Shown in pieces: positions 14,225 through 26,131 of a DNA stretch of 36,896 nucleotides; position 1 is the first letter of the stretch, and each line of letters begins with the position of its first letter. The position numbers and the translations under genes are program-made. Under the pieces are notes generated by a model. It ran no database searches and was not told where the DNA came from. It worked only from the letters and a program-made list of their open reading frames with translations. Source of the stretch: Gemmatimonadota bacterium (lineage in GTDB: Bacteria > Gemmatimonadota > Gemmatimonadetes > Longimicrobiales > Gaopeijiaceae); the NCBI GenBank assembly GCA_003248075.1, contig QJYK01000126.1, positions 1 through 36,896 on the forward strand. Reading direction: 5' to 3'.

Positions 14225-16804
14225 CTATTCCTCCCGCAGGGACCGGACCGGGTCGAGACGCGCCGCGCGCACGGCCGGTGACGTCAGCGCGACGAGAGCG
14301 ACCGCCAGGAGCACGAGCGGTGCCGATCCCAGCGCCGCGAGGTCGGCGGCCTGCACCCCGAACAGGAGACCCTCCAGAACGCCTCCCCCCACGTACGAAC
14401 CGGCCGCCCCCAGCACCAGGCCCAGAACGACCGGGCCGAGGCCCTCGCGAATCGTGCGCGCGGCGACCGACGGGCCGTCGGCGCCCAACGCCAGTCGGAT
14501 ACCGATCTCTCGTCGGCGCTCGCCGACGGCCTGAGCCGCCACCCCGTAGATCCCCACCCCACCCAGCGTCAGTCCCACAAGGCCGAACAGGGACAGCAAC
14601 GTGGCGACGAGGCGGGCGCGCGCCGTCGTCTTCGCGACCACGTCCGACATCAACGTGGGACCGGTCATCGACACGGACGGGTCCACCGACGAGACGGCGC
14701 TCCGGACGGCCTCGAGGACCCCGGAGGGATCGCCCCCCACCCTCGTGACCAGGTACAGTCGCCGCCACGGCACATGCACGAAGGGGACGTACATCTCGGC
14801 GTGCGCAGCTTGTCGCAGGTCGCTCTGCCGGACGTCGGCAACGACGCCGACCACCTCCGCTGGCGTCGCGTCCTCTCCCAGGTAGACCGTGCGACCCAGG
14901 AGCTCGGCTCCGGCTTCGGCAGCCACCCGTTCGTTGACCAGCACACGGACCGGGGCACCGGGCACGAAGTCCTCCTCGTTCAGGGAGCGCCCGCGCACGA
15001 GGCGCACCCGCATCGCCTCGAAGTACCCCTGTCGGACCACCCGCATGGCGGTGTAATGATCGGCGTCCACGCCCTCGGGCGCCGCGGTCCGGTACGTCGA
15101 CCACCACCCACCCGGCGTCATGGGAAGGAACTGGATCGCGCCCACGTCGGTCACGCCGGGCAAGCGTGCCAGCTCCGAGGTGATTCGTCCGTAGTACGTC
15201 TCCAACTCCGGACCCGACGGGTAACGATCCGCCGGCGGCGACAGGCGCACAGTCACCACTCCATCGGGGTCGAAGCCCGGATCTACGGCAGCCAGCGAAG
15301 CGACGGTCCGGACCATGAGCCCGGCTCCGGCCAGCAAGAGCACAGCCAGGGCGGCCTCGGCCACGACCAGAGCGCTACGTACCCGTACGTGCCCGCGGCC
15401 AGCGCTCGAGCCGCGGCCGCTCGACAGGGTCCGGCCGAGCCCCGAACCCGTTGCGCTCAGAACGGGCGCCAGACCCGTCATGAAGGCCACGAGGACGACG
15501 GTGGCGGCGGCGAAGCCGGCTACGCCCGGCGTCATCCCCACCTGCCCCACCCTGGGAAGGTCGGGCGGGAGCCGTTCCACCAACCAAGGGAGCGCGGATG
15601 CGGTCAAGGCGGTGCCCAGCACGCCGCCCGCGATGGCCAGCAGGAGCACCTCCACCACGATCTGACGCCCCACCCGGGCGCGGCTGCCGCCCAACACGGA
15701 CCGCACCGCGAACTCGCGGGCCCGCGAGCGCCCGTGGGCGAGAAGAAGGTTCGCGACGTTGGCGCAGGCCAGCAGGATCAGGAAGGCGACCCCCGCCCCG
15801 AGCACGCGCAGGATCCGGTCCGCATCACCGAGCAGCCAGGCGCGAATCGGGATCATGCGCATGCTCGCCCGATCCAGATCGCTCACCTCGCCTCCACCTT
15901 CGATCCAGATGTCGCCGAGCACCCGCCGCATCTCGTCCTGGGCCTGCTCGAGGGTGACTCCGTCCCGAAGGCGGCCGTCGACCACCATCCCACGGCCCAT
16001 CATTGCCTCGGGGTCTGGCGGCATCGGGCTCCAGGCCTCCCAGTCGTGCTCGAGCGGAACGTAGTCGGCGCCCATGACGCCGACCACGGTCGTCGCGCGA
16101 CCCGAGACCTGAACGGTGCGTCCCACGACCCCGGGATCGGCGCCGAATCGGCGGACCCAGAGACCATGCGCGAGCACGACGACGTCACGGGCATCCGCAT
16201 CCTCATCGCGGAACCCCCGCCCATGGAGCGGCCGAGCGCCCAGCATGTCGAAGTGGTTCCAGGAGACCGAGGCACCCCGGACCTCCTCGGGTTGGTCGCC
16301 GTCGGAAAAGAGGAAGAGCTCCCTCGACCATGCCGCGGTGCTCTGCAGTGTGGTCATCCGCTCCGCGAAGGCCCGGGCCTCCAGGGCGTCGACGAAGAAG
16401 AGCTCGTCGGGAATCGGGCGCACGAGGCGGTCCGCCGACGTGTAGGGGAGCGGCGCCAGCAGAACCGTGCGCACGACGCTGAAGACGCCGGTCCCCAGGG
16501 CGAGGACCAGCCCGAGCGTCCCCGTGATCGCCAGGGTGAACGCGGGTCGCCTGCCCATGACCCGCAGCGCGTGGCGGACCTCCGTACCGAGCCCCGGGCC
16601 GAACGCGTGGAGGCGGACGAGGTTGGGGACGGACAGGAGGACCTGCCTCCAATACCAGACGTCGGCGCCGAGCGGGCCGCGCTGCGGGCGGATGTAGCGT
16701 TGGTACTCCTCGTCCAGATCTCCGACGACCGCAGCGGCGTCTCCCGGCGGGAGCAGCCATTGAAGCAGCAGGCGGGCGATTCTGGGAGGGGCGGGCGTCC
16801 TCAT
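14225..16804 (-). CDS. ADOP-family ABC transporter permease (MacB/FtsX type, orphan)
   Basis: 859 residues from the ATG at 16804, which overlaps the PadR stop by 4 bp. The N-terminal ~70 residues carry the ADOP signature (VVGDLDEEYQR, WYWRQVLLSVP) that precedes the permease. Then come a transmembrane helix, a MacB periplasmic core domain, an FtsX three-helix block (FLILLACANVANLLL), a second periplasmic domain and a final FtsX block (SLFGLVGLTLGGVGIYGVAAQ). This duplicated layout defines the 'acidobacterial duplicated orphan permeases', known from Acidobacteriota and Gemmatimonadota. No ATPase gene is nearby, as usual for these. Role unknown; MacB relatives drive efflux or mechanotransmission. 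Regulation is presumably by the adjacent PadR protein. Confidence 0.9.
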   Translation of the reverse strand: MRTPAPPRIARLLLQWLLPPGDAAAVVGDLDEEYQRYIRPQRGPLGADVWYWRQVLLSVPNLVRLHAFGPGLGTEVRHALRVMGRRPAFTLAITGTLGLVLALGTGVFSVVRTVLLAPLPYTSADRLVRPIPDELFFVDALEARAFAERMTTLQSTAAWSRELFLFSDGDQPEEVRGASVSWNHFDMLGARPLHGRGFRDEDADARDVVVLAHGLWVRRFGADPGVVGRTVQVSGRATTVVGVMGADYVPLEHDWEAWSPMPPDPEAMMGRGMVVDGRLRDGVTLEQAQDEMRRVLGDIWIEGGGEVSDLDRASMRMIPIRAWLLGDADRILRVLGAGVAFLILLACANVANLLLAHGRSRAREFAVRSVLGGSRARVGRQIVVEVLLLAIAGGVLGTALTASALPWLVERLPPDLPRVGQVGMTPGVAGFAAATVVLVAFMTGLAPVLSATGSGLGRTLSSGRGSSAGRGHVRVRSALVVAEAALAVLLLAGAGLMVRTVASLAAVDPGFDPDGVVTVRLSPPADRYPSGPELETYYGRITSELARLPGVTDVGAIQFLPMTPGGWWSTYRTAAPEGVDADHYTAMRVVRQGYFEAMRVRLVRGRSLNEEDFVPGAPVRVLVNERVAAEAGAELLGRTVYLGEDATPAEVVGVVADVRQSDLRQAAHAEMYVPFVHVPWRRLYLVTRVGGDPSGVLEAVRSAVSSVDPSVSMTGPTLMSDVVAKTTARARLVATLLSLFGLVGLTLGGVGIYGVAAQAVGERRREIGIRLALGADGPSVAARTIREGLGPVVLGLVLGAAGSYVGGGVLEGLLFGVQAADLAALGSAPLVLLAVALVALTSPAVRAARLDPVRSLREE

Positions 16805-17233: not shown

Positions 17234-18553
17234 TCAGGGCGCGGAGTCGGCCGCCTCGCGGAGCCCGTCCACCAGCCAGTGCACCACGCCGCTGCCCGGT
17301 TCTCGGGGCAGCGTCTCGGTGCCGTTGAGGTCCCGCAGGACACGGTCCAGCGACGCCTCGAGACGGGACTGGGCGTCCGGATCCGTGCCCGCCGCCTCGA
17401 GGACCGGGTCCGCCGAGAGCCTCAAGCCGCGGGCGGGCTCGTATGTGATCCGCCCCCGCAAGCGCACCAGCTGGTCATGGAGCGCCAGCGCCGACTGCGC
17501 GAGGTCCCAGATGCGCGAGTAGTGCGCTTCCCGCGCCCGACGGGTCGCCTCGAAGTCCTCGACGGCGGCCGCCATCCTCAGCGAACGGACGGGACCGGAC
17601 AGGCCCGCGTTCGACGCCGCCGTCAGATAGGCGCGTCGGTACAACTCCACCTCGGAGGCATAGGCCTCCTCGGAGTACGCGAGGAAGCGCTCCCAGAACA
17701 GGCGCACCTCGGGATGCCCGGCAGCATCGGCGAGATACCACCCCTGCAGCCAAGCCGCCGGAACCTCCTCGATGGCGAACTCCGGACGCAAGCCGTCGAC
17801 CGCGGCCACGAAGTTGGAATACGCGACCTCACGAAGCTGTACCTCTGAGCTCTGCAGTGGACGGAACGCCCTCGCTTCGACGCCTCGGGCCTCCGCGGTG
17901 GACACCGGACCCGACCTGCCCGAGCCCGGCCGAACGATGGCCGCCGAGGCGACCAGGGCCGCAGCCGGAAAGGCCAGCGCCAGGGTCCACCCACCCGCGA
18001 GGCTCCGGCCCCGCTTGCGAGGCCGCATCGGGGGCACGACGTCCGGGCGCGCCCGAGGGCCGGCCGAGGGTGGGGTCCGTCCCCGGGTCGGCCACTCGAG
18101 CCGAACCGGCACGGCGCGCGGCGCCTTGGGCGCGACGGCGGGGCGCTCGCGGAACAGCTCCGGTGTCTCCGGATCGCTGCGACGCTCTTCCTCCATGCGC
18201 GCGATGAACGACTCGGCGGCCTCCTCGGGAGATGGTTCCTCGGGGCTGACCAGCTCGAACTCGAGCGGATCGCCCCCGCCTCCGTCGGCCGACACGACGA
18301 ACGAGCCGAACGCGCCGACCGAGCCGCGGCCCCTGGAAGCGCTCGCCACCGAAGCCGCCGGAAGGTCCCCTCCGTCGGAGAACATCCTCACCACGGTGTG
18401 CGTGCGGGCGGGCGCCCATTCGCTGGTCAGCGCATCGAAGACCAGATCGTCCGGACCCACGGCGCCGGAGCGCACGAGATCAGCCAGGATCTCGAGCGTC
18501 CGAGGCTCGAGATCCCGTCCGTCACGAGTACGGATGCGGAAGCGCGCTTTCAT
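17234..18553 (-). CDS. Unknown single-pass membrane protein with GYF_2-like N-terminal domain
   Basis: 439 residues from the ATG at 18553. Residues 1-58 (RIRTRDGRDLEPRTLEILAD...VGPDDLVFD...EWAPA) look like the GYF_2/DUF4339 fold seen at the start of many bacterial membrane proteins and thought to bind peptides. A low-complexity, Pro/Arg/Glu-rich linker (about 60-185) leads to one transmembrane helix (about 187-207) after a basic cluster (RPRKRGR). The rest, about 230 residues, is helical, probably extracytoplasmic, with Trp/Tyr-rich stretches and no domain I recognise. The N-terminus should face the cytoplasm. It has its own likely promoter about 150 bp upstream and ends close to the PadR operator. 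Function unknown. Confidence 0.75.
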   Translation of the reverse strand: MKARFRIRTRDGRDLEPRTLEILADLVRSGAVGPDDLVFDALTSEWAPARTHTVVRMFSDGGDLPAASVASASRGRGSVGAFGSFVVSADGGGGDPLEFELVSPEEPSPEEAAESFIARMEEERRSDPETPELFRERPAVAPKAPRAVPVRLEWPTRGRTPPSAGPRARPDVVPPMRPRKRGRSLAGGWTLALAFPAAALVASAAIVRPGSGRSGPVSTAEARGVEARAFRPLQSSEVQLREVAYSNFVAAVDGLRPEFAIEEVPAAWLQGWYLADAAGHPEVRLFWERFLAYSEEAYASEVELYRRAYLTAASNAGLSGPVRSLRMAAAVEDFEATRRAREAHYSRIWDLAQSALALHDQLVRLRGRITYEPARGLRLSADPVLEAAGTDPDAQSRLEASLDRVLRDLNGTETLPREPGSGVVHWLVDGLREAADSAP

Positions 18554-18734: not shown

Positions 18735-18771
18735 CAAAAGTTGCCGTGGGGCCCCCCGCGCCGGCGGGGCC
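18735..18771 (-). terminator. Terminator-like hairpin at the end of the seven-gene redox operon
   Basis: Directly after the TAG of the minus-strand gene ending at 18771 lies a GC-rich stem: CCCCGC (18754-18759) pairs with GCGGGG (18764-18769), extendable by GGCC/GGCC with a two-base bulge. TTTT follows on the minus strand at 18738-18735, after a 9-12 nt gap. Confidence 0.4.
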
Positions 18772-19292
18772 TAGGCCGGTACCGGTGCCCTGCGCAGTCT
18801 TCTGCCCTCTTCGGCCCTGATCTTGCCGACGGCGCGCTCAACCTGCTCCACCAGCGACGAGCTGAAGACGTGCTTGTTCTCCTCGAACCAGGCGGCCCAG
18901 GAGGGGGTGCGAAGGTGTTCCTCCAGGGTGCGCTCGTAGCTGTCCCACATCTGTTGGTCCAGCGCTCCCACGCGGTACTGATAGACCAGGTTGCCGAAAT
19001 GCCGGTAGACCGCGGTCATGTAGGCGTCCCAGCGGACCCGCTCGCTCGCGGACAGGGAGTCGGGATCGCTCTGTGCCCGATGCAGGAAGTCGGCGAACTC
19101 CGAGTCCCGGAACGAGTGCTCCAGGAGGCGGATGCTGTTCTGCACCATGGAGTTGAACGAGGCGGCGCGAACCGACGTGGTGTTCTGGATCATCTGCCGG
19201 GCCAGGTAGACCAGGGAGATCACCACGCCCAGGGCACCGACGAACTCGCCGATGTTCCCCAGTGCGATGAGGGTCGTCATGTGTGCTGTCAT
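18771..19292 (-). CDS. Unknown protein with one N-terminal membrane helix and helical cytoplasmic part
   Basis: 173 residues from the ATG at 19292; an alternative ATG at 19280 gives 169. The start is uncertain, since the best G-rich site (GGAGGG) is 17 bp upstream. Sequence begins with a single hydrophobic helix (LGNIGEFVGALGVVISLVYLARQM), followed by QNTTSVRAASFNSMVQNSIRL and a helical, Trp- and charge-rich body of about 130 residues. I recall this layout from many uncharacterised proteins in marine bacteria, but no function is known. It is the last gene of the operon starting at 24994, 14 bp after the preceding stop, and is followed by a terminator-like hairpin. Confidence 0.65.
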   Translation of the reverse strand: MTAHMTTLIALGNIGEFVGALGVVISLVYLARQMIQNTTSVRAASFNSMVQNSIRLLEHSFRDSEFADFLHRAQSDPDSLSASERVRWDAYMTAVYRHFGNLVYQYRVGALDQQMWDSYERTLEEHLRTPSWAAWFEENKHVFSSSLVEQVERAVGKIRAEEGRRLRRAPVPA

Positions 19293-19306
19293 GGATCGTG
19301 TGGTGC

Positions 19307-19636
19307 CTACCCTCCATCGGGAGGCTGCGAAAGATACTTGACCCATGTCAGGAGTCGAGCCCCCTCGGACCGCTCGCGCTCGCGCTGAAGCCGACGGATT
19401 TGCCTGCCCACGATCACCGACGACGCGATCACCAGGGAGACCGCACCCACCGTGAGGGCGAGACCCACGCCCGGCGCCGGCGCTCCGGTCACCACGGCCG
19501 CGCCCATCAGGAAGCCGGCCACGATCTCGACGAGCGGCACGAGGTGGACCCCGCGACCCAACCTGCCCCAGGCGTGGAGCTTCACCACGCCCGAGATCAG
19601 CAGCAGCGTCGCCGCCGCCACGTGCAGAGTGGTCAT
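19307..19636 (-). CDS. Small three-helix membrane protein, unknown (DoxX/MauE-like size)
   Basis: 109 residues. Three hydrophobic segments are visible (about residues 3-22, 31-50 and 55-78), followed by a strongly basic and charged tail (GRQIRRLQRERERSEG). The first helix ends in KLHAWGRLGRG, mildly like DoxX/MauE family proteins, but the fourth helix of those is missing, so I do not assign it. It lies 13 bp after the stop of the preceding gene in the cytochrome b / xanthine-oxidase operon, and may help the cytochrome subunit assemble. That is inference from position alone. Confidence 0.65.
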   Translation of the reverse strand: MTTLHVAAATLLLISGVVKLHAWGRLGRGVHLVPLVEIVAGFLMGAAVVTGAPAPGVGLALTVGAVSLVIASSVIVGRQIRRLQRERERSEGARLLTWVKYLSQPPDGG

Positions 19637-19649
19637 CGGGCCACGCCGA

Positions 19650-20042
19650 CTACCCCAGCAGGTCGTCGATCAGGAAGAAATCGGTGAGGAGGGCGCGCAG
19701 GTGGATGTTCGCGTTGAGGTTGTCCACCAGCTGGGAGCTCACGGACGGCCTGGACTCGACGAGCCGCAGCGCGGCCGCGGCAGCCGCCTCGTCCCGGGCC
19801 AGGACCTCCGCCAGCCTCCGCCACGCCTCGCGGGGGACCAGGGACCCGCCCTCCACGAGGGCCAGAAGGTCGTCCGAAACCCCTTCCACGGCATCCGCGG
19901 CGCTGGCCAGGAACCCTCTGAGCTGCCCCGCGGACGACGAGCCCGCATCTCCCGACAGACCCTGCGCAGCGTACGCCAGGAAGAACTCGTAGGCTTCTTC
20001 GAGCGCGTTGAAGCGCCCCCGAAGGCCCTCCAAGGTGGACAT
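19650..20042 (-). CDS. Unrecognised small helical protein in the xanthine-oxidase/cytochrome b operon
   Basis: 130 residues from the ATG at 20042, 4 bp after the cytochrome b stop; AAGGA lies immediately against the ATG. A longer form from 20081 would overlap the cytochrome gene by 35 bp. The protein is all-helical, acidic and Ala/Leu-rich, without signal peptide or membrane helix, and ends LRALLTDFFLIDDLLG. No cysteine, histidine cluster or known motif is visible. Position suggests a cytoplasmic maturation or assembly factor for the redox complex, but this is a guess from context. Confidence 0.65.
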   Translation of the reverse strand: MSTLEGLRGRFNALEEAYEFFLAYAAQGLSGDAGSSSAGQLRGFLASAADAVEGVSDDLLALVEGGSLVPREAWRRLAEVLARDEAAAAAALRLVESRPSVSSQLVDNLNANIHLRALLTDFFLIDDLLG

Positions 20043-20046
20043 TCCT

Positions 20047-20928
20047 TCAGGCGTCTTGGTCGGGAGCACGGGCGACGGCATCCGCGATCGCGCCGGCTCC
20101 GCGCCTCGCGCCCGCGTCCACGCCCACGTTCCACCGTTCCGGGTCGTGGTGGGCCAGGTAGTGCTCGCGATCGATCCACCCGCGCACCATCGACCACGTG
20201 ATCCATCTCTTCTCCGGCCGGATCGCGAAGTAGATGTGCCCTGCGACGAGTCCGATCAAGGAGACGCCCGACAGGCCGTGAACCAGGTAGGTCCATCCCC
20301 ACGCGGCATCGGAGAGCAGGTACGTGTTCCGGTCCCAGAACGGCGTATCGATCCGGAGCATCATGAGGAGCCCGGTGGCGATGGCCCCGAAGCTGACGAC
20401 GACCACGACGTGGTGGTAGAGCTTGTGGTCGAACGGGTACTTGCCCGCCCGGGGGGCCGGGGGAGCCTTCGGGTCCAGGGATTGCCGAAGCTCGGCGAAG
20501 CCCTCGCGCACGTCTCGCGCGCTCACCCACATCGATCCGAGGTCCTGCCACCCGATCGAGTGCACGATGTGCCAGAGGACGGTGGCGAGGAGCGCCAGCC
20601 CTGCGACCCAGTGCAGGGTCACCCACGGAAACTGGAGCCCGAGCACCGGCACGAAGGCCGTGACGAGCAGCACGAGCATGGCGGCGGACATGACCCAGTG
20701 GAACGCCCGGGCGGCGAACGAGTGCCGCTCGACACGCTCGGGGAGCCCCGAAGACCCGGGGCCTGGCTCGGAGGCTTCGTGGGTGAAGCCTCCTCGAAGC
20801 CGGACCCAGACCATGTGTCCCACCACGAACGCCGCCGAAGCGACCACGGCGAGCCAGACGAGATCCCAGCCGATCCCGATGAGGACTTCCTGCCCCCAGG
20901 GATTCGCGGCCCTGCGCAGCACCTCCAT
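20047..20928 (-). CDS. Cytochrome b (FdnI / cytochrome b561-like) membrane subunit
   Basis: 293 residues from the ATG at 20928, overlapping the FAD-subunit stop by 4 bp. Five hydrophobic helices are seen: about residues 15-45, 70-95, 103-125, 172-195 and 215-240. Histidines suited to haem binding occur in RAFHWVMS, TLHWVAG, LWHIVHS, LYHHVVV and VAGHIYFAIRPEKRW. The last motif is typical of the formate-dehydrogenase gamma-subunit type cytochrome b, which carries electrons from a periplasmic enzyme to quinone. Here the partner is most likely the Tat-exported xanthine-oxidase-family complex encoded just upstream, an uncommon pairing. An Ala-rich C-terminal tail has no assigned role. Confidence 0.85.
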   Translation of the reverse strand: MEVLRRAANPWGQEVLIGIGWDLVWLAVVASAAFVVGHMVWVRLRGGFTHEASEPGPGSSGLPERVERHSFAARAFHWVMSAAMLVLLVTAFVPVLGLQFPWVTLHWVAGLALLATVLWHIVHSIGWQDLGSMWVSARDVREGFAELRQSLDPKAPPAPRAGKYPFDHKLYHHVVVVVSFGAIATGLLMMLRIDTPFWDRNTYLLSDAAWGWTYLVHGLSGVSLIGLVAGHIYFAIRPEKRWITWSMVRGWIDREHYLAHHDPERWNVGVDAGARRGAGAIADAVARAPDQDA

Positions 20929-21926
20929 CAGGCGGCGCTCCTGACCGCACGGCGGACCAGGTTCCGCATCAGCGCGAGCTTGTATCCGTTGTACTTGAGC
21001 GGTCGGGCACCCTGCACCGCCAGGTCCCCCGCGGCCTGGGCCGTCTCCTCGCTCGCGGGCGCCCCGGTCACGAGCCGCTCCACGTCGTGCAGCCGGACGG
21101 GGTACGCGGCCACGCCGTTGACGACCACCCGTGCCTGATCGATCCGGCCCCCGGCGGTCCGGAACGCGGCAGCGACCGTGACCAGCGCGAAGTCCCAGGA
21201 ACCGCGGTCCCGCACCTTCTCGAAGTAGAAGCGGGCACCCGCCCAATCGGCAGGAACGCGGATGGACGTGAGCAGGTCGCCGGGCTTCAGTGCCGTCATG
21301 CGGGTGATGTCGATCGCCGGGCCCACGAAATAGTCTTCCGCGGCGACGGTCCGCGTTCCCCGACGGTTTCGGACGTCCATGGTGGCGTCCAGCGCGACCA
21401 GGGCCGGCGCCGTGTCGGACGGGTTGACCGCGACGCAGCGGGATGCGCCGAGGATGCAGTGCTCGCGGTTCATCGCCTGAGGCGCCGAGGCATAGCAGGT
21501 GTTTCCACCGGCCCGATAGCACGGCCACCCGCTCCGGTAGTACCAGCAGCGGGTGTCCTGGGAGACGTTCCCACCCAGGGTACCCTGGTTACGGATCTGC
21601 GGCGTCGCGACCTGGGACGCGGCGTCCGCGAGGAGCTGGAACCGGCTGCGCACCCGCTCATCGGCCGCGACCGCGCTCAGCGAGGTCATCGCGCCGATGT
21701 CCAGGCCTTCGCCTCGCTCCTGGATGCCGGTGAGGTCGGGAATGCCTCCGAGATCGATCACGACCCGGGGACGCTTGATCCGGTCCTTGAACCAGTCCAT
21801 CGAATCCAGGCCGCCGGCCAGGGCCCAGGCCTCCCGGCCGTGCTCGGCCAGAAGCGCGACCGCGTCCTCGACGGTGGCCGGCTGGAACAGCTCGAAGGCC
21901 GGCATCATGTCACGTATGGTGGCCAT
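20928..21926 (-). CDS. FAD-binding subunit of a molybdenum hydroxylase, with probable 4Fe-4S insert
   Basis: 332 residues from the ATG at 21926, preceded by GAGGGA; the frame extends to 22034 but would overlap the neighbour. FAD-binding motifs of the CoxM/XdhB type are present: ALAGGLDSMDWFKDRI and ATPQIRNQGTLGGNVSQDT. An insert follows with Cys127, Cys136, Cys144, Cys157 and Cys164 (RCWYYRSGWPCY...NTCY...REHCILGASRC). The same region in 4-hydroxybenzoyl-CoA reductase and E. coli PaoB binds a 4Fe-4S cluster, so one is likely here. The usual C-terminal CO_deh_flav_C domain follows. It should pass electrons between the 2Fe-2S subunit and the acceptor. It has no signal of its own and probably travels with the Tat-bearing subunit. 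Confidence 0.9.
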   Translation of the reverse strand: MATIRDMMPAFELFQPATVEDAVALLAEHGREAWALAGGLDSMDWFKDRIKRPRVVIDLGGIPDLTGIQERGEGLDIGAMTSLSAVAADERVRSRFQLLADAASQVATPQIRNQGTLGGNVSQDTRCWYYRSGWPCYRAGGNTCYASAPQAMNREHCILGASRCVAVNPSDTAPALVALDATMDVRNRRGTRTVAAEDYFVGPAIDITRMTALKPGDLLTSIRVPADWAGARFYFEKVRDRGSWDFALVTVAAAFRTAGGRIDQARVVVNGVAAYPVRLHDVERLVTGAPASEETAQAAGDLAVQGARPLKYNGYKLALMRNLVRRAVRSAA

Positions 21927-21937
21927 CGCTCTTTCCC

Positions 21938-24340
21938 TCAGCCGATGTGGGTGGCGGTCGGTGAATAGGGCTTCCGCAACCCCTCGAGCTCGGTCAGGAT
22001 GATGTCGGGGGTGAGCGGCGTCCTGCACAGGCATCTACCCCCCAGCGCATCCGCCACGGCACACGTGATGGCGGCGGCCCCCGCTCCGACCGGCGGCTCG
22101 CCGATCCCCTTCGCCCCCACCGGCGTCGTGGGGTCCGGGATGCCAACCGCGGCCCACTGCGCGTTCAGGGGGACGTCGAGCATCCCGGGCGGTCGAGCCG
22201 TATACAGGCGCTTGGCGAACGGGACGCCCCACTTCGGATCGAAGACCCACCGTTGGGTCATCGCCATGCCCATCCCCTGGATGGAGCCCCCGAGGACCTG
22301 AGCGCCGAGGCTGCGCGGATGGATGACCGTACCGCAGTCGGTCGCACCCGTGTAGTCCACGACCTCGACCACCCCCGTCTCTGTGTCCAGCTCCACCACG
22401 GCGAAGCCTACGACCCACGAGTAGACCCCGGCCCCGTCGCCCCCGTAGTTGTCCTTCGCCACGCCCACCAGGCCCTGCCCAGCGACCTTCGACGCGGCGG
22501 TGACCGTCTCCGCGTGGATGTCGTCCGGCAGCTCGTGGCCGTCGAAATGTCCGCCCAGCTCGATGGCGCGCCGCGCCACGTCGGCGAAGCTCATCCCCGA
22601 GCCCCGGCTCCCACGTCGGAAGACGCGCCCTCCGTCGAGGACGTAGTCACCCGGCGCGCCCCCGAGCGTGCGCGCCGCGACCTCCTGGATCTTGCGCTTG
22701 GCGTCCTCGGCAGCCGCGTGGTTGGCACGTGTGTGCGCGTGGGTGGTCTGACTTCCCGCCTGATTCGAGCTGCGCGGGACGCCCAGGCTCGTGTCTCCCC
22801 AGTGGATCTCGACCTGGTCCCAGGAAAGCCCCAGGAGCTCCGCCGCGGGTCGGGCCGTATCGGCGATCGAGTGCGTTCCCAGATTCCCGATGCCCTGATG
22901 GACGTGGAGCTTCCCGTCGGGGCGCACCACCATGAGCCCGTCGTAGCCCCGTGAGCCGGCCGTGTAGGGCGAGAGCCCGATCCCCACGCCGGTGACCTTC
23001 GTGCCGTTGCGCCGGCCCGACAGCATCCGCTTCTCGTCCCAACCGAAGGTACGCGCCCCCAGCTCGAGGGCTTCCCTGGCGTGCACACTGGTGAGCCCCA
23101 TGAGGCGCGGACCGAAGCGCACGTCGGATCCCGGCGCGTTCAGACTGCGGATCGCTAGCCTGTCGACTCCCAGCTGGCGGGCCCCCTTGTCCACGATCGG
23201 CTCGAGCATCGAGATGATCTGGGCGCCTCCCGGCCCACGCTGCGCCGCCTTCGGAGGGGTGTTGGTGAACACGGACACGGCCCGCACCCGCACGTTCTCC
23301 GGCGTGTAGGTCAGGTGGGCCACCGCTCCCGCGGTCCCGAAGTCGCCGGAGCCGTACGCGCCTCCCTCTTCCACCAGATACAGGTCCAGGGCGGTCATGC
23401 GACCGTCCGCACGGAACCCCATCTTCACCCACCCCTGGAAGCCCGGGCGCGCCCTACCGAAGTAGTTCTCCTCGTACCGGGTGACGCGATGCATCACGGG
23501 ACGACCGATCTTGCGCGAGAGCAGCGCCGGGATCTGCATGACCGTGCTGCCGCTGATCTTGCTGCCGAAGCCGCCTCCGCAGTACTCGGCCACGAAGACG
23601 ATGTCCTCGAGGTCCAGCTCCAGCGCGCTCGCGAGCGCTGCACGCGTTCGCGCCGTGCTTTGCGTGGACGCGAAGATGTGGAGCTTCCCGTTCTGCCAGA
23701 AGGCCATGTTCGAGCGGGGCTCCATCGGGTGGTGCGTGACCGACTGATGGACGATGGTCTCCTCGACGATCAGGTCCGCCGCGGCGAAGGCGGCGTCCAC
23801 GTCGCCGTGGGACCACTCGGAGGTCGGCTCGCCCATCGGCAGGCGCCCGGCGGCCTCCGCGCTGGCGAACTCCTCGGCGGTCCACTTGAGGCTCTTCCAC
23901 TCCCGGTCGACGATCACGTTCCCTTGGACGTGCGCGTCGGCTCCCCCCGGCCGGAGTGACTCCAAAGGGTCGAGCACGAAGGGTAAGGGCTCGAGGTCGA
24001 CCCGGATCCGCTCGACCGCCTCGGCGGCCGTAGCCTCGTCGACCGCGGCGACCGCGAGGATCGGCTCTCCCTCGTAGACGGGCTCGTTGGTGAGGCACTG
24101 CTCCGCGGGCGCGTCCCGCTGAGGCACGTCGTCCGCCGTCAGGATACCCAGGACGCCCGGCATCGACAGCGCCCGCTCCGCATCGATGCGTCGGACCCGC
24201 GCGTGGGGCATGGGGCTCAAGAGGAGCTTCGCGAACGCCATCCCGTCCGCCCTGAAGTCCTCCGCGTATCTCGCCCTCCCGGTGATCTTCGCGACCAGAT
24301 CGGGTGGGGCGATGTCGGTTCCGATGAGCTTCTCGGCCAT
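21938..24340 (-). CDS. Molybdenum-binding catalytic subunit, xanthine oxidase family
   Basis: 800 residues from the ATG at 24340, which has AGGGGG eight bases upstream; a GTG three codons earlier is less suited. Domains run in CoxL/XdhA order: an a/b hammerhead (about 1-130), then the Mo-binding region with EYCGGGFGSK, TPPKAAQRGPGGAQ and, near the C-terminus, GAKGIGEPP, whose Glu748 is the expected catalytic base. The loop that reads AYxCSFR in form I CO dehydrogenase is different here, so it is not a CO dehydrogenase. Aldehyde or N-heterocycle oxidation is plausible. The protein lacks a signal peptide and is probably co-exported with the 2Fe-2S subunit. Confidence 0.92.
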   Translation of the reverse strand: MAEKLIGTDIAPPDLVAKITGRARYAEDFRADGMAFAKLLLSPMPHARVRRIDAERALSMPGVLGILTADDVPQRDAPAEQCLTNEPVYEGEPILAVAAVDEATAAEAVERIRVDLEPLPFVLDPLESLRPGGADAHVQGNVIVDREWKSLKWTAEEFASAEAAGRLPMGEPTSEWSHGDVDAAFAAADLIVEETIVHQSVTHHPMEPRSNMAFWQNGKLHIFASTQSTARTRAALASALELDLEDIVFVAEYCGGGFGSKISGSTVMQIPALLSRKIGRPVMHRVTRYEENYFGRARPGFQGWVKMGFRADGRMTALDLYLVEEGGAYGSGDFGTAGAVAHLTYTPENVRVRAVSVFTNTPPKAAQRGPGGAQIISMLEPIVDKGARQLGVDRLAIRSLNAPGSDVRFGPRLMGLTSVHAREALELGARTFGWDEKRMLSGRRNGTKVTGVGIGLSPYTAGSRGYDGLMVVRPDGKLHVHQGIGNLGTHSIADTARPAAELLGLSWDQVEIHWGDTSLGVPRSSNQAGSQTTHAHTRANHAAAEDAKRKIQEVAARTLGGAPGDYVLDGGRVFRRGSRGSGMSFADVARRAIELGGHFDGHELPDDIHAETVTAASKVAGQGLVGVAKDNYGGDGAGVYSWVVGFAVVELDTETGVVEVVDYTGATDCGTVIHPRSLGAQVLGGSIQGMGMAMTQRWVFDPKWGVPFAKRLYTARPPGMLDVPLNAQWAAVGIPDPTTPVGAKGIGEPPVGAGAAAITCAVADALGGRCLCRTPLTPDIILTELEGLRKPYSPTATHIG

Positions 24341-24352
24341 GGTCGTCACCCC

Positions 24353-24994
24353 CTACACGCTGCGCGCGAGCTCGCCGGCCCGCATCGCGCAGTCGAGGAT
24401 CTTGTTGTAGTCGCCGCACCGGCAGAGGTTGCCCGATAGCGCGCTCGCCGCTTCGTCTCTCGTGAACGACGGGGTCGACGTCACCAGCGCGGTCATGCTC
24501 ATCAGGAAACCGGGCGCGCAGAACGCGCACTGGAATCCGCCCCCCTCGAGCACGGCCTGTTGAACCGGGCTGAGCGCGCCCGTCTCGGGGTCCTGGAGTC
24601 CCTCGACCGTGGTCACCGACCTTCCGCGGACCGCATGGGTCAGGATCGAGCACCCGTAGTGGTTGACCCCATCGACGAGAACCGTGCACGCGCCACACTC
24701 CGCCCGATCGCACCCGAGCTTGGTACCCGTGAGGCCGAGCTTGTAGCGGAGCGTCATGGCCAGCGTTTCGTTCGGAAGCACGTCCACACGCCGCTGCTGG
24801 CCGTTCACGTTCAGCGTCAACAGGCGCTCGGCCGTGCCCTGGAGCGCCGTGGCGGCGAACAGGCCGCCGCCCGAGGCGCGGAAGAGCGTCCCGGCCGTCG
24901 ATGCGGTCGCCCCCGCTGCGATGACCCCCTTGATGAACGTCCGTCGGGAGACGGAGCGCGTTGGTAGCCCGTTGACGTCGACCTCGTCGATCAT
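24353..24994 (-). CDS. Tat-exported 2Fe-2S subunit of a molybdenum hydroxylase
   Basis: 213 residues from the ATG at 24994, first gene of the operon; the frame is open far upstream but antisense to the next genes. A twin-arginine signal (SRRTFIKGVIAAGATASTAG) occupies the N-terminus, making the protein about 50 residues longer than usual CoxS proteins. Two 2Fe-2S sites are complete: Cys95, 100, 103, 115 (plant ferredoxin type) and Cys156, 159, 191, 193. The same arrangement, with the Tat signal on the small subunit only, is known from E. coli PaoA (YagT). The whole heterotrimer is thus predicted to be periplasmic. The next gene begins 12 bp after its stop. Confidence 0.92.
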   Translation of the reverse strand: MIDEVDVNGLPTRSVSRRTFIKGVIAAGATASTAGTLFRASGGGLFAATALQGTAERLLTLNVNGQQRRVDVLPNETLAMTLRYKLGLTGTKLGCDRAECGACTVLVDGVNHYGCSILTHAVRGRSVTTVEGLQDPETGALSPVQQAVLEGGGFQCAFCAPGFLMSMTALVTSTPSFTRDEAASALSGNLCRCGDYNKILDCAMRAGELARSV

Positions 24995-25114
24995 GCGGCC
25001 GGCTCCTGCCTGGCGGTTCGGGTGACTGCGGCAACATAGGCGTGCGGGTTTTCGGGCGCGAGGACATCGGAACGGGGGTTCCCGGTGCCCGGGTTTTCGG
25101 CGACCTTCCGGACC

Positions 25115-26131
25115 ATGCCACGCGCCGTACCTGCCCTCCGACGGATGCGCCCGGCGCTCTTGCTCGTATCCGGGGCGACCCTCGCCGCCCCGGTGGCAGT
25201 CACGGCCCAGCGCGTCTCCTTCGGGCCTCTGGTCACCGAGGAGGGCGGCCCGCTCCAGCGCATCGCATACACGCCCGCCACCGAGGTCGCCGACCTCGTC
25301 GGACGCGACCGAGCGGCCGCGGAGATCTGGGTGGGATATTCCAATATCTTCGAGCAGGACTCGGCGTCCACGCACCAGCTCTATCTCGACATGGAGCGAC
25401 TCATCACTTCGGTCGGCGTGCGCTGGGGCGTTGTCGAGCGCCTGGAGCTGGGAGGGCGGGCCACCTTCGAGACCACCGGAGGCGGATTCCTGGACGGGTT
25501 CATCTCGTGGTGGCACACGACCCTCGGCCTCGGAAACGCCGATCGGGAGAAGTACCCGAGTCGCGCGTACGGACAGCGGCTCGCCGACGAGGGCTCGCTC
25601 CTTCTCGATGTCCCCCGGCGCACGCTGGCCCTGGAGGACGTGCGCCTCTTCGCCAAGGCCTCGATCCTCGGAGGCGCGGGCTCCGCGGGGGCGGTGAGCG
25701 TGCGGGCGGTGACCCGCATCCCCACTCAGACGAACTTCGTGGGGCCGGAGCGGACCGACGTCGCCCTCATGCTGCTGGGGAGGCTGTCGGGGGAGCATTG
25801 GCATCTGCACGGGTCGACGGGAGGCTCGACGATCCGGGCCTCCAGGGATTTTCCTACCGTGCTGCGTTCCTCGGCTTGGTTCCTCGACGTAGGCCTCGAG
25901 CGGGTCCTGGCGCCCTGGATGAGCGCGCTCGTCCAGTACTCCTTCGCCACTCCGCACCTCAAGGGCATCCACGACCCGGAGATCGACGGCTGGGCCGGCA
26001 ACTTCGTCTTCGGAGCCGCCGGTCGCCTGGGCCCTTCGTGGCGATGGAACGTCTCCTTCCAGGAAGACATTCCCCCGGTCTCCCCGGCCATCGATTTCAC
26101 TCTCGGTATCGGCGTCCGAAGGACCTGGTGA
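25115..26131 (+). CDS. DUF3187-like exported protein
   Basis: 338 residues from the ATG at 25115; starts at 25085 (GTG) or 25145 (ATG) are possible, and none has a strong ribosome site. A signal peptide with basic N-terminus (RRMRPALLLVSGATLAAPVAVTAQ) is clear. The body has alternating hydrophobic/polar strands and features seen in DUF3187 proteins: a conserved early segment, RLELGGRATFETTGGGFLDGFISWWHTTLGL in which the FLDGFI-x-x-[FW]-H pattern stands out, and repeated beta-strand pairs ending in FTLGIGVRRTW. An outer-membrane beta-barrel is likely because of the terminal aromatic residue. Divergent from the molybdenum hydroxylase operon, with only about 120 bp between starts. Function unknown. 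Confidence 0.75.
   Translation: MPRAVPALRRMRPALLLVSGATLAAPVAVTAQRVSFGPLVTEEGGPLQRIAYTPATEVADLVGRDRAAAEIWVGYSNIFEQDSASTHQLYLDMERLITSVGVRWGVVERLELGGRATFETTGGGFLDGFISWWHTTLGLGNADREKYPSRAYGQRLADEGSLLLDVPRRTLALEDVRLFAKASILGGAGSAGAVSVRAVTRIPTQTNFVGPERTDVALMLLGRLSGEHWHLHGSTGGSTIRASRDFPTVLRSSAWFLDVGLERVLAPWMSALVQYSFATPHLKGIHDPEIDGWAGNFVFGAAGRLGPSWRWNVSFQEDIPPVSPAIDFTLGIGVRRTW

Follow-up and report, generated by a model that had tools for sequence, protein, structure and literature searches.

Exported enzymes of the xanthine oxidase (XO) family leave a gap with respect to their electron acceptor. For PaoABC of Escherichia coli, the terminal acceptor has not been identified, and oxygen reacts with the enzyme only very slowly (PMC3958847). 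Molybdenum-containing CO dehydrogenase (Mo-CO dehydrogenase), an XO-family trimer, feeds the quinone pool through CoxG, a quinone-binding membrane protein (PMC13240472), and in acetic acid bacteria the membrane-bound MCD aldehyde dehydrogenase (8gy3), a periplasm-facing molybdopterin dehydrogenase, has been depicted as an electron donor to ubiquinone (PMC9171043). In formate dehydrogenase N, the membrane partner of a molybdoenzyme exported by the twin-arginine translocation (Tat) system is FdnI (1kqf_C), a four-helix dihaem cytochrome b. Here, we analyse a gene unit in a 36,896-nucleotide stretch of DNA (the window) from a Gemmatimonadota bacterium (GenBank assembly GCA_003248075.1, contig QJYK01000126.1), which pairs a trimer assigned to the XO family with a dihaem cytochrome of this formate-to-quinone kind and so makes the route testable. 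We consider it likely that the unit encodes a periplasmic, membrane-bound, respiratory XO-family dehydrogenase that reduces quinone via the cytochrome, which would answer the acceptor question for the trimers of its group. No description of an XO-family operon that includes an FdnI-type cytochrome of its own was found in the open papers searched, a set that leaves subscription journals largely uncovered.

The unit occupies positions 24994 to 18771, read on the minus strand, and the seven genes listed in a preliminary description of this DNA all lie where they had been placed:

24353..24994, minus strand: iron-sulfur (FeS) subunit, 213 amino acids; Tat signal SRRTFIK; two [2Fe-2S] sites; Pfam Fer2, Fer2_2 and TAT_signal
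21938..24349, minus strand: molybdenum (Mo) subunit, 803 amino acids from GTG at 24349, with ATG at 24340 as the alternative start; Pfam MoCoBD_1/2 and Ald_Xan_dh_C
20928..21926, minus strand: flavin adenine dinucleotide (FAD) subunit, 332 amino acids; Pfam FAD_binding_5 and CO_deh_flav_C; Cys127, Cys136, Cys144 and Cys164
20047..20928, minus strand: cytochrome b (cytb), 293 amino acids; PF01292 (cytochrome b561), E-value 1.4e-19
19650..20042, minus strand: s1, 130 amino acids; predicted soluble four-helix bundle; core of the unit
19307..19636, minus strand: s2, 109 amino acids; about three membrane helices predicted by hydropathy; accessory
18771..19292, minus strand: s3, 173 amino acids; one predicted N-terminal membrane helix; lineage-specific neighbour

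The FAD stop codon and the cytb start codon share 1 bp (TGATG, position 20928), rather than the 4 bp previously reported, and s2 and s3 follow after gaps of 13-14 bp. This spacing resembles that of co-transcribed genes and agrees with the shared transcription unit proposed earlier. A promoter scan of the locus found none, and its two terminator-like sites correspond to chance level.

Judged from domains and motifs, the window trimer is an XO-family heterotrimer composed of Mo, FAD and two-[2Fe-2S] subunits with a catalytic glutamate. The eight cluster-ligand cysteines of the FeS subunit are retained in 59-62 of 62 sequences, and the GAKGIGE motif of the Mo subunit, with catalytic Glu751, in 63 of 64. 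The Tat signal implied by the preliminary description is borne out by the TAT_signal match and by SRRTFIK in the FeS subunit; of the 61 relatives scanned, 60 have a twin-arginine motif. The genome encodes TatC and three XdhC-type proteins, and no XdhC-type gene was seen within the unit. In the FAD subunit, Cys127, Cys136, Cys144 and Cys164 are invariant (19/19 aligned sequences) and match in position the additional cysteine loop found in 5y6q_B and PaoB (5g5g_B), a loop that binds a [4Fe-4S] cluster in these enzymes. The FAD subunit of the window probably carries such a cluster as well. PaoABC (5g5g) and the bacterial aldehyde oxidase 5y6q share with the unit an XO-family heterotrimer, a twin-arginine FeS subunit (PaoA) and a cysteine-loop FAD subunit, whereas paoABCD contains neither a cytochrome nor s1 and encodes the PaoD insertase together with the enzyme.

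All NCBIfam equivalog cut-offs tested (PaoA/PaoC, CO dehydrogenase, xanthine dehydrogenase and 4-hydroxybenzoyl-CoA reductase) were missed. The scores were 125.6 and 216.4 bits for the PaoA and PaoC equivalogs (cut-offs 322 and 1180), 153 and 235 bits for CoxL (991 and 950) and 349, 194 and 143.5 bits for the alpha, beta and gamma equivalogs of 4-hydroxybenzoyl-CoA reductase (995, 405 and 257.8). Among the NCBIfam models, the last enzyme nevertheless scores highest for both the Mo and the FAD subunit; it is also the top PDB match for the Mo subunit, and its flavoprotein has the extra cysteine loop (1rm6). This raises the alternative of reverse electron flow, in which quinol would reduce the Mo enzyme and the complex would act as a periplasmic reductase, comparable to 4-hydroxybenzoyl-CoA reductase with ferredoxin in the cytoplasm. 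We regard this as improbable, given scores far under the equivalog cut-offs. Moreover, quinols are too weak for a reduction of the 4-hydroxybenzoyl-CoA type and CoA esters are unexpected in the periplasm.

In the cytochrome, an N-terminal extra membrane helix (residues 24-42) that contains the invariant His38 precedes, in one fused protein, a dihaem part of the FdnI type with four helices (residues about 65-260), of which residues 69-251 are spanned by the PF01292 match. A profile of 29 cytb sequences gave a single PDB match, FdnI (1kqf_C, E-value 1.1e-4). The haem ligands of FdnI, His18, His57, His155 and His169, align with cytb His77, His106, His217 and His231, which are all invariant. The AlphaFold2 model of cytb, with a mean predicted local distance difference test (pLDDT) score of 81.9, likewise has 1kqf_C as its best fold match (Foldseek E-value 3e-6, template modelling (TM) score 0.75 by target; structural alignment Z 15.8, root-mean-square deviation 3.5, 199 aligned residues). 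The earlier designation of the cytochrome as FdnI-like is therefore upheld by the sole profile relative, the best fold match and the four retained haem histidines. Three further histidines, His69, His120 and His172, are also invariant. The two cytochromes share their role beside a Tat-exported molybdoenzyme, but FdnI serves an enzyme of the dimethyl sulfoxide reductase family through FdnH, whereas the window unit has an XO-family trimer, no FdnH and a cytochrome extended by the helix bearing His38.

The second fold match of cytb is the superoxide oxidase of E. coli (5oc0, Z 13.9), and some trimers have no adjacent cytochrome. Both observations would suit a trimer that mainly uses a soluble periplasmic carrier or oxygen, with cytb as an auxiliary protein that, for example, oxidizes superoxide like E. 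coli CybB. We give this alternative little chance: FdnI is the better match by both sequence and fold, cytb carries an extra conserved helix, and its gene overlaps the FAD gene by 1 or 4 bp in many loci, as frequently observed among relatives together with 4 bp overlaps of cytb and s1.

In most loci of one gammaproteobacterial order, the extra helix has its own gene of about 50 codons, which lies in several different frames (e.g. MELVRVSRDVYGREVLEGISWDLLPVFFWAGIAFICAHALYRWLLAPRRR); three loci of the same order and the Gemmatimonadota have it fused to cytb. Because helix 1 is encoded separately in most gammaproteobacterial loci, the window cytb is best regarded as a one-helix protein joined to a four-helix cytochrome. 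Sequencing errors were considered for the in-frame stops in cytb of loci L032 and L033 and rejected, since most gammaproteobacterial loci show the same split, with differing frames, which marks the small gene as real and separate. The conserved N-terminal PWGQEVLIGIGWDL would be periplasmic if the four-helix part has the topology of FdnI; the charge distribution of cytb is only weakly informative on topology. No cytb homologue was found in plasmids.

To place the unit in a wider context, 98 related genomes were surveyed by comparing the flanks of cytb matches at an E-value threshold of 1e-20; the genomes are often related to each other, so that the counts do not represent independent events. 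At this threshold, cytb was present in 37 of the 98 genomes. The order FeS-Mo-FAD-cytb-s1 is found in 27 complete Gemmatimonadota loci, and gammaproteobacterial loci keep FAD-cytb-s1 even where the positions of Mo and FeS are swapped. The unit is not a chance arrangement, because this gene order is conserved across two phyla. It is also common in little-cultured bacteria, as s1 occurs in 86 of 395 sampled Gemmatimonadota genomes (24/138 genera) and in 43 of 296 genomes of the gammaproteobacterial order of genome G414; among genomes drawn from the gammaproteobacterial class, it occurs in 2 of 369. A single-sequence scan of genome contigs yielded three loci only. One locus of the collection (L031) stems from Gemmatimonadetes isolate B56T3L14, which belongs to the same family as the window genome, and two gammaproteobacterial loci (L169:2177-7792 and L170:2564-8167) contain two Mo subunits in tandem per trimer locus.

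Trimer and cytochrome also occur together at the level of genomes. An FAD subunit of at least 55% identity is encoded in 36 of the 98 genomes and cytb in 35 of these, the 36th (G008) having its cytb cut by a contig end. Conversely, cytb is found without such an FAD match only in G033 and G034, where no more than about 110 bases separate its start from a contig end. In the tree of FAD subunits, the trimers whose genomes have cytb-s1 make up a single clade with 65 rows (support 100/99, branch 0.79), and the flanks of five XO-family rows outside the clade contain neither cytb nor s1. Sixteen clade rows have no adjacent cytb in the stretch taken, but cytb-s1 is present elsewhere in each of the genomes concerned. 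Of these rows, 13 represent second trimers of Gemmatimonadota genomes with the full unit (L119-L131, e.g. L127:1961-5972), which carry the Tat signal and have no adjacent cytb or s1, and three are from gammaproteobacteria (G520, G471 and G480) with cytb-s1 apart from the trimer. The second trimers may share one cytochrome with the full unit. Cytb and s1 are thus obligate partners of one trimer clade with near-complete co-occurrence, and this co-inheritance without linkage is the strongest evidence of a working partnership. The neighbourhood survey had looked for a cytochrome that is not conserved beside the enzyme, which the preliminary description had named as grounds for abandoning its proposal; the 27 ordered loci and the near-complete co-occurrence showed the opposite.

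Fourteen genomes hold two trimers and one cytb-s1, and in L139:5520-8799 and L146:5284-8415 cytb-s1 lies away from the trimer, beside a divergent gene for a pyrroloquinoline quinone (PQQ) dehydrogenase with a cytochrome c domain. Cytb-s1 might on these grounds be a general electron-transfer module for several periplasmic dehydrogenases, PQQ alcohol dehydrogenases included. This seems very unlikely to us, as the L139 and L146 genomes still encode the trimer elsewhere and nearly every other locus has cytb-s1 joined to the FAD gene. Some observations weigh against our proposal of a quinone-reducing complex of trimer and cytb. Second trimers of the clade without adjacent cytb would require either one cytb for two trimers or another acceptor for some trimers; in G547, which has cytb-s1, a search at 1e-40 found no FAD subunit; and cytb scores 46.8 bits against TIGR01583 (formate dehydrogenase gamma), for which the NCBIfam cut-off is 115.85.

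For a quinone-reducing complex of this kind, we infer the following electron path and direction. The FeS-Mo-FAD trimer would fold with its cofactors in the cytoplasm, be exported by Tat via the signal of the FeS subunit and dock on cytb in the periplasm. Electrons would pass from the substrate at the Mo site via the two [2Fe-2S] clusters and FAD to the probable [4Fe-4S] cluster of the FAD subunit. From there they would reach the periplasmic haem and, through the second haem, quinone, which is the route in formate dehydrogenase N. The extra N-terminal helix probably has a periplasmic end, the conserved PWGQ(E/D)VLxGxSWDL, and probably clamps the trimer to cytb, and s1, as a soluble cytoplasmic four-helix protein, would most likely aid assembly or docking of the complex. 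If so, proton motive force could arise from hydroxylation or aldehyde oxidation in the periplasm. Mo-CO dehydrogenase resembles the window unit in having a dedicated membrane protein toward quinone, although CoxG is not a cytochrome b, whereas the MCD enzyme of acetic acid bacteria has a cytochrome c subunit in place of the cytochrome b of the window unit, which contains no cytochrome c gene. In older work, cytochrome b561 was reportedly proposed as the acceptor of CO dehydrogenase in carboxydotrophs, which would be a functional precedent. We raise tentatively, and do not favour, the broader view that the unit represents a separate class of respiratory complex, in which an electrogenic XO-family dehydrogenase forms half of a redox loop and a modular cytb unit serves one or two different periplasmic molybdenum hydroxylases per cell. 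That modular unit would combine the four-helix core with a microprotein of one helix, which carries a conserved histidine of its own, and with the dedicated four-helix factor s1.

The three small proteins had been described as unrecognised, and none of them has a Pfam, NCBIfam or PHROGs family above cut-off. Their grouping into one unit holds for s1, which belongs to the core and adjoins cytb wherever both lie within a contig, but not for s2 and s3, which are local neighbours only. The AlphaFold2 model of s1 is an all-helical four-helix bundle (pLDDT 94.9), and hydropathy indicates no membrane helix. Its 17 invariant residues in alignment A1 are concentrated in YEFFLAYAAQG and SSQLIDNLNASIHxRALLTDLFL. 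The PDB sequence search gave no meaningful match to s1, and the fold search returned generic four-helix bundles, none at an E-value of 0.001 or better. In a comparison with the TorD/NarJ/DmsD redox-enzyme chaperones, s1 was all-helical, matched no family model and retrieved generic bundles only. Haem binding as in cytochrome b562, suggested by fold rows and the invariant His114, was rejected, with nothing else in its favour. Size, location and strict co-occurrence lead us to guess that s1 is probably an assembly or docking factor. It defines a protein family without assignment, and the conserved one-helix membrane microprotein may escape routine annotation. A second s1-like gene lies about 2.5 kb after the first in L142:9215-12358, and L032 has a partial second copy near 15448.

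Among about 33 Gemmatimonadota loci, s2 occurs in only a handful and s3 in about 10, both confined to close relatives; s3 was not detected among the gammaproteobacterial loci and has no PDB match. In alignment A2, s3 shows 54-74% identity in 10 close relatives, and in L041 it lies 3.6 kb from s1. Two further genes flank the unit:

17234..18547, minus strand: GYF_2-domain protein; GYF_2 E-value 2.3e-4, below cut-off
25085-26131, plus strand: DUF3187 protein, divergent from the FeS gene

The GYF_2 protein is probably outside the complex; its gene adjoins s3 or s1 in relatives L034, L037, L038, L040 and L042. The DUF3187 gene also adjoins the FeS gene in L035 and L036.

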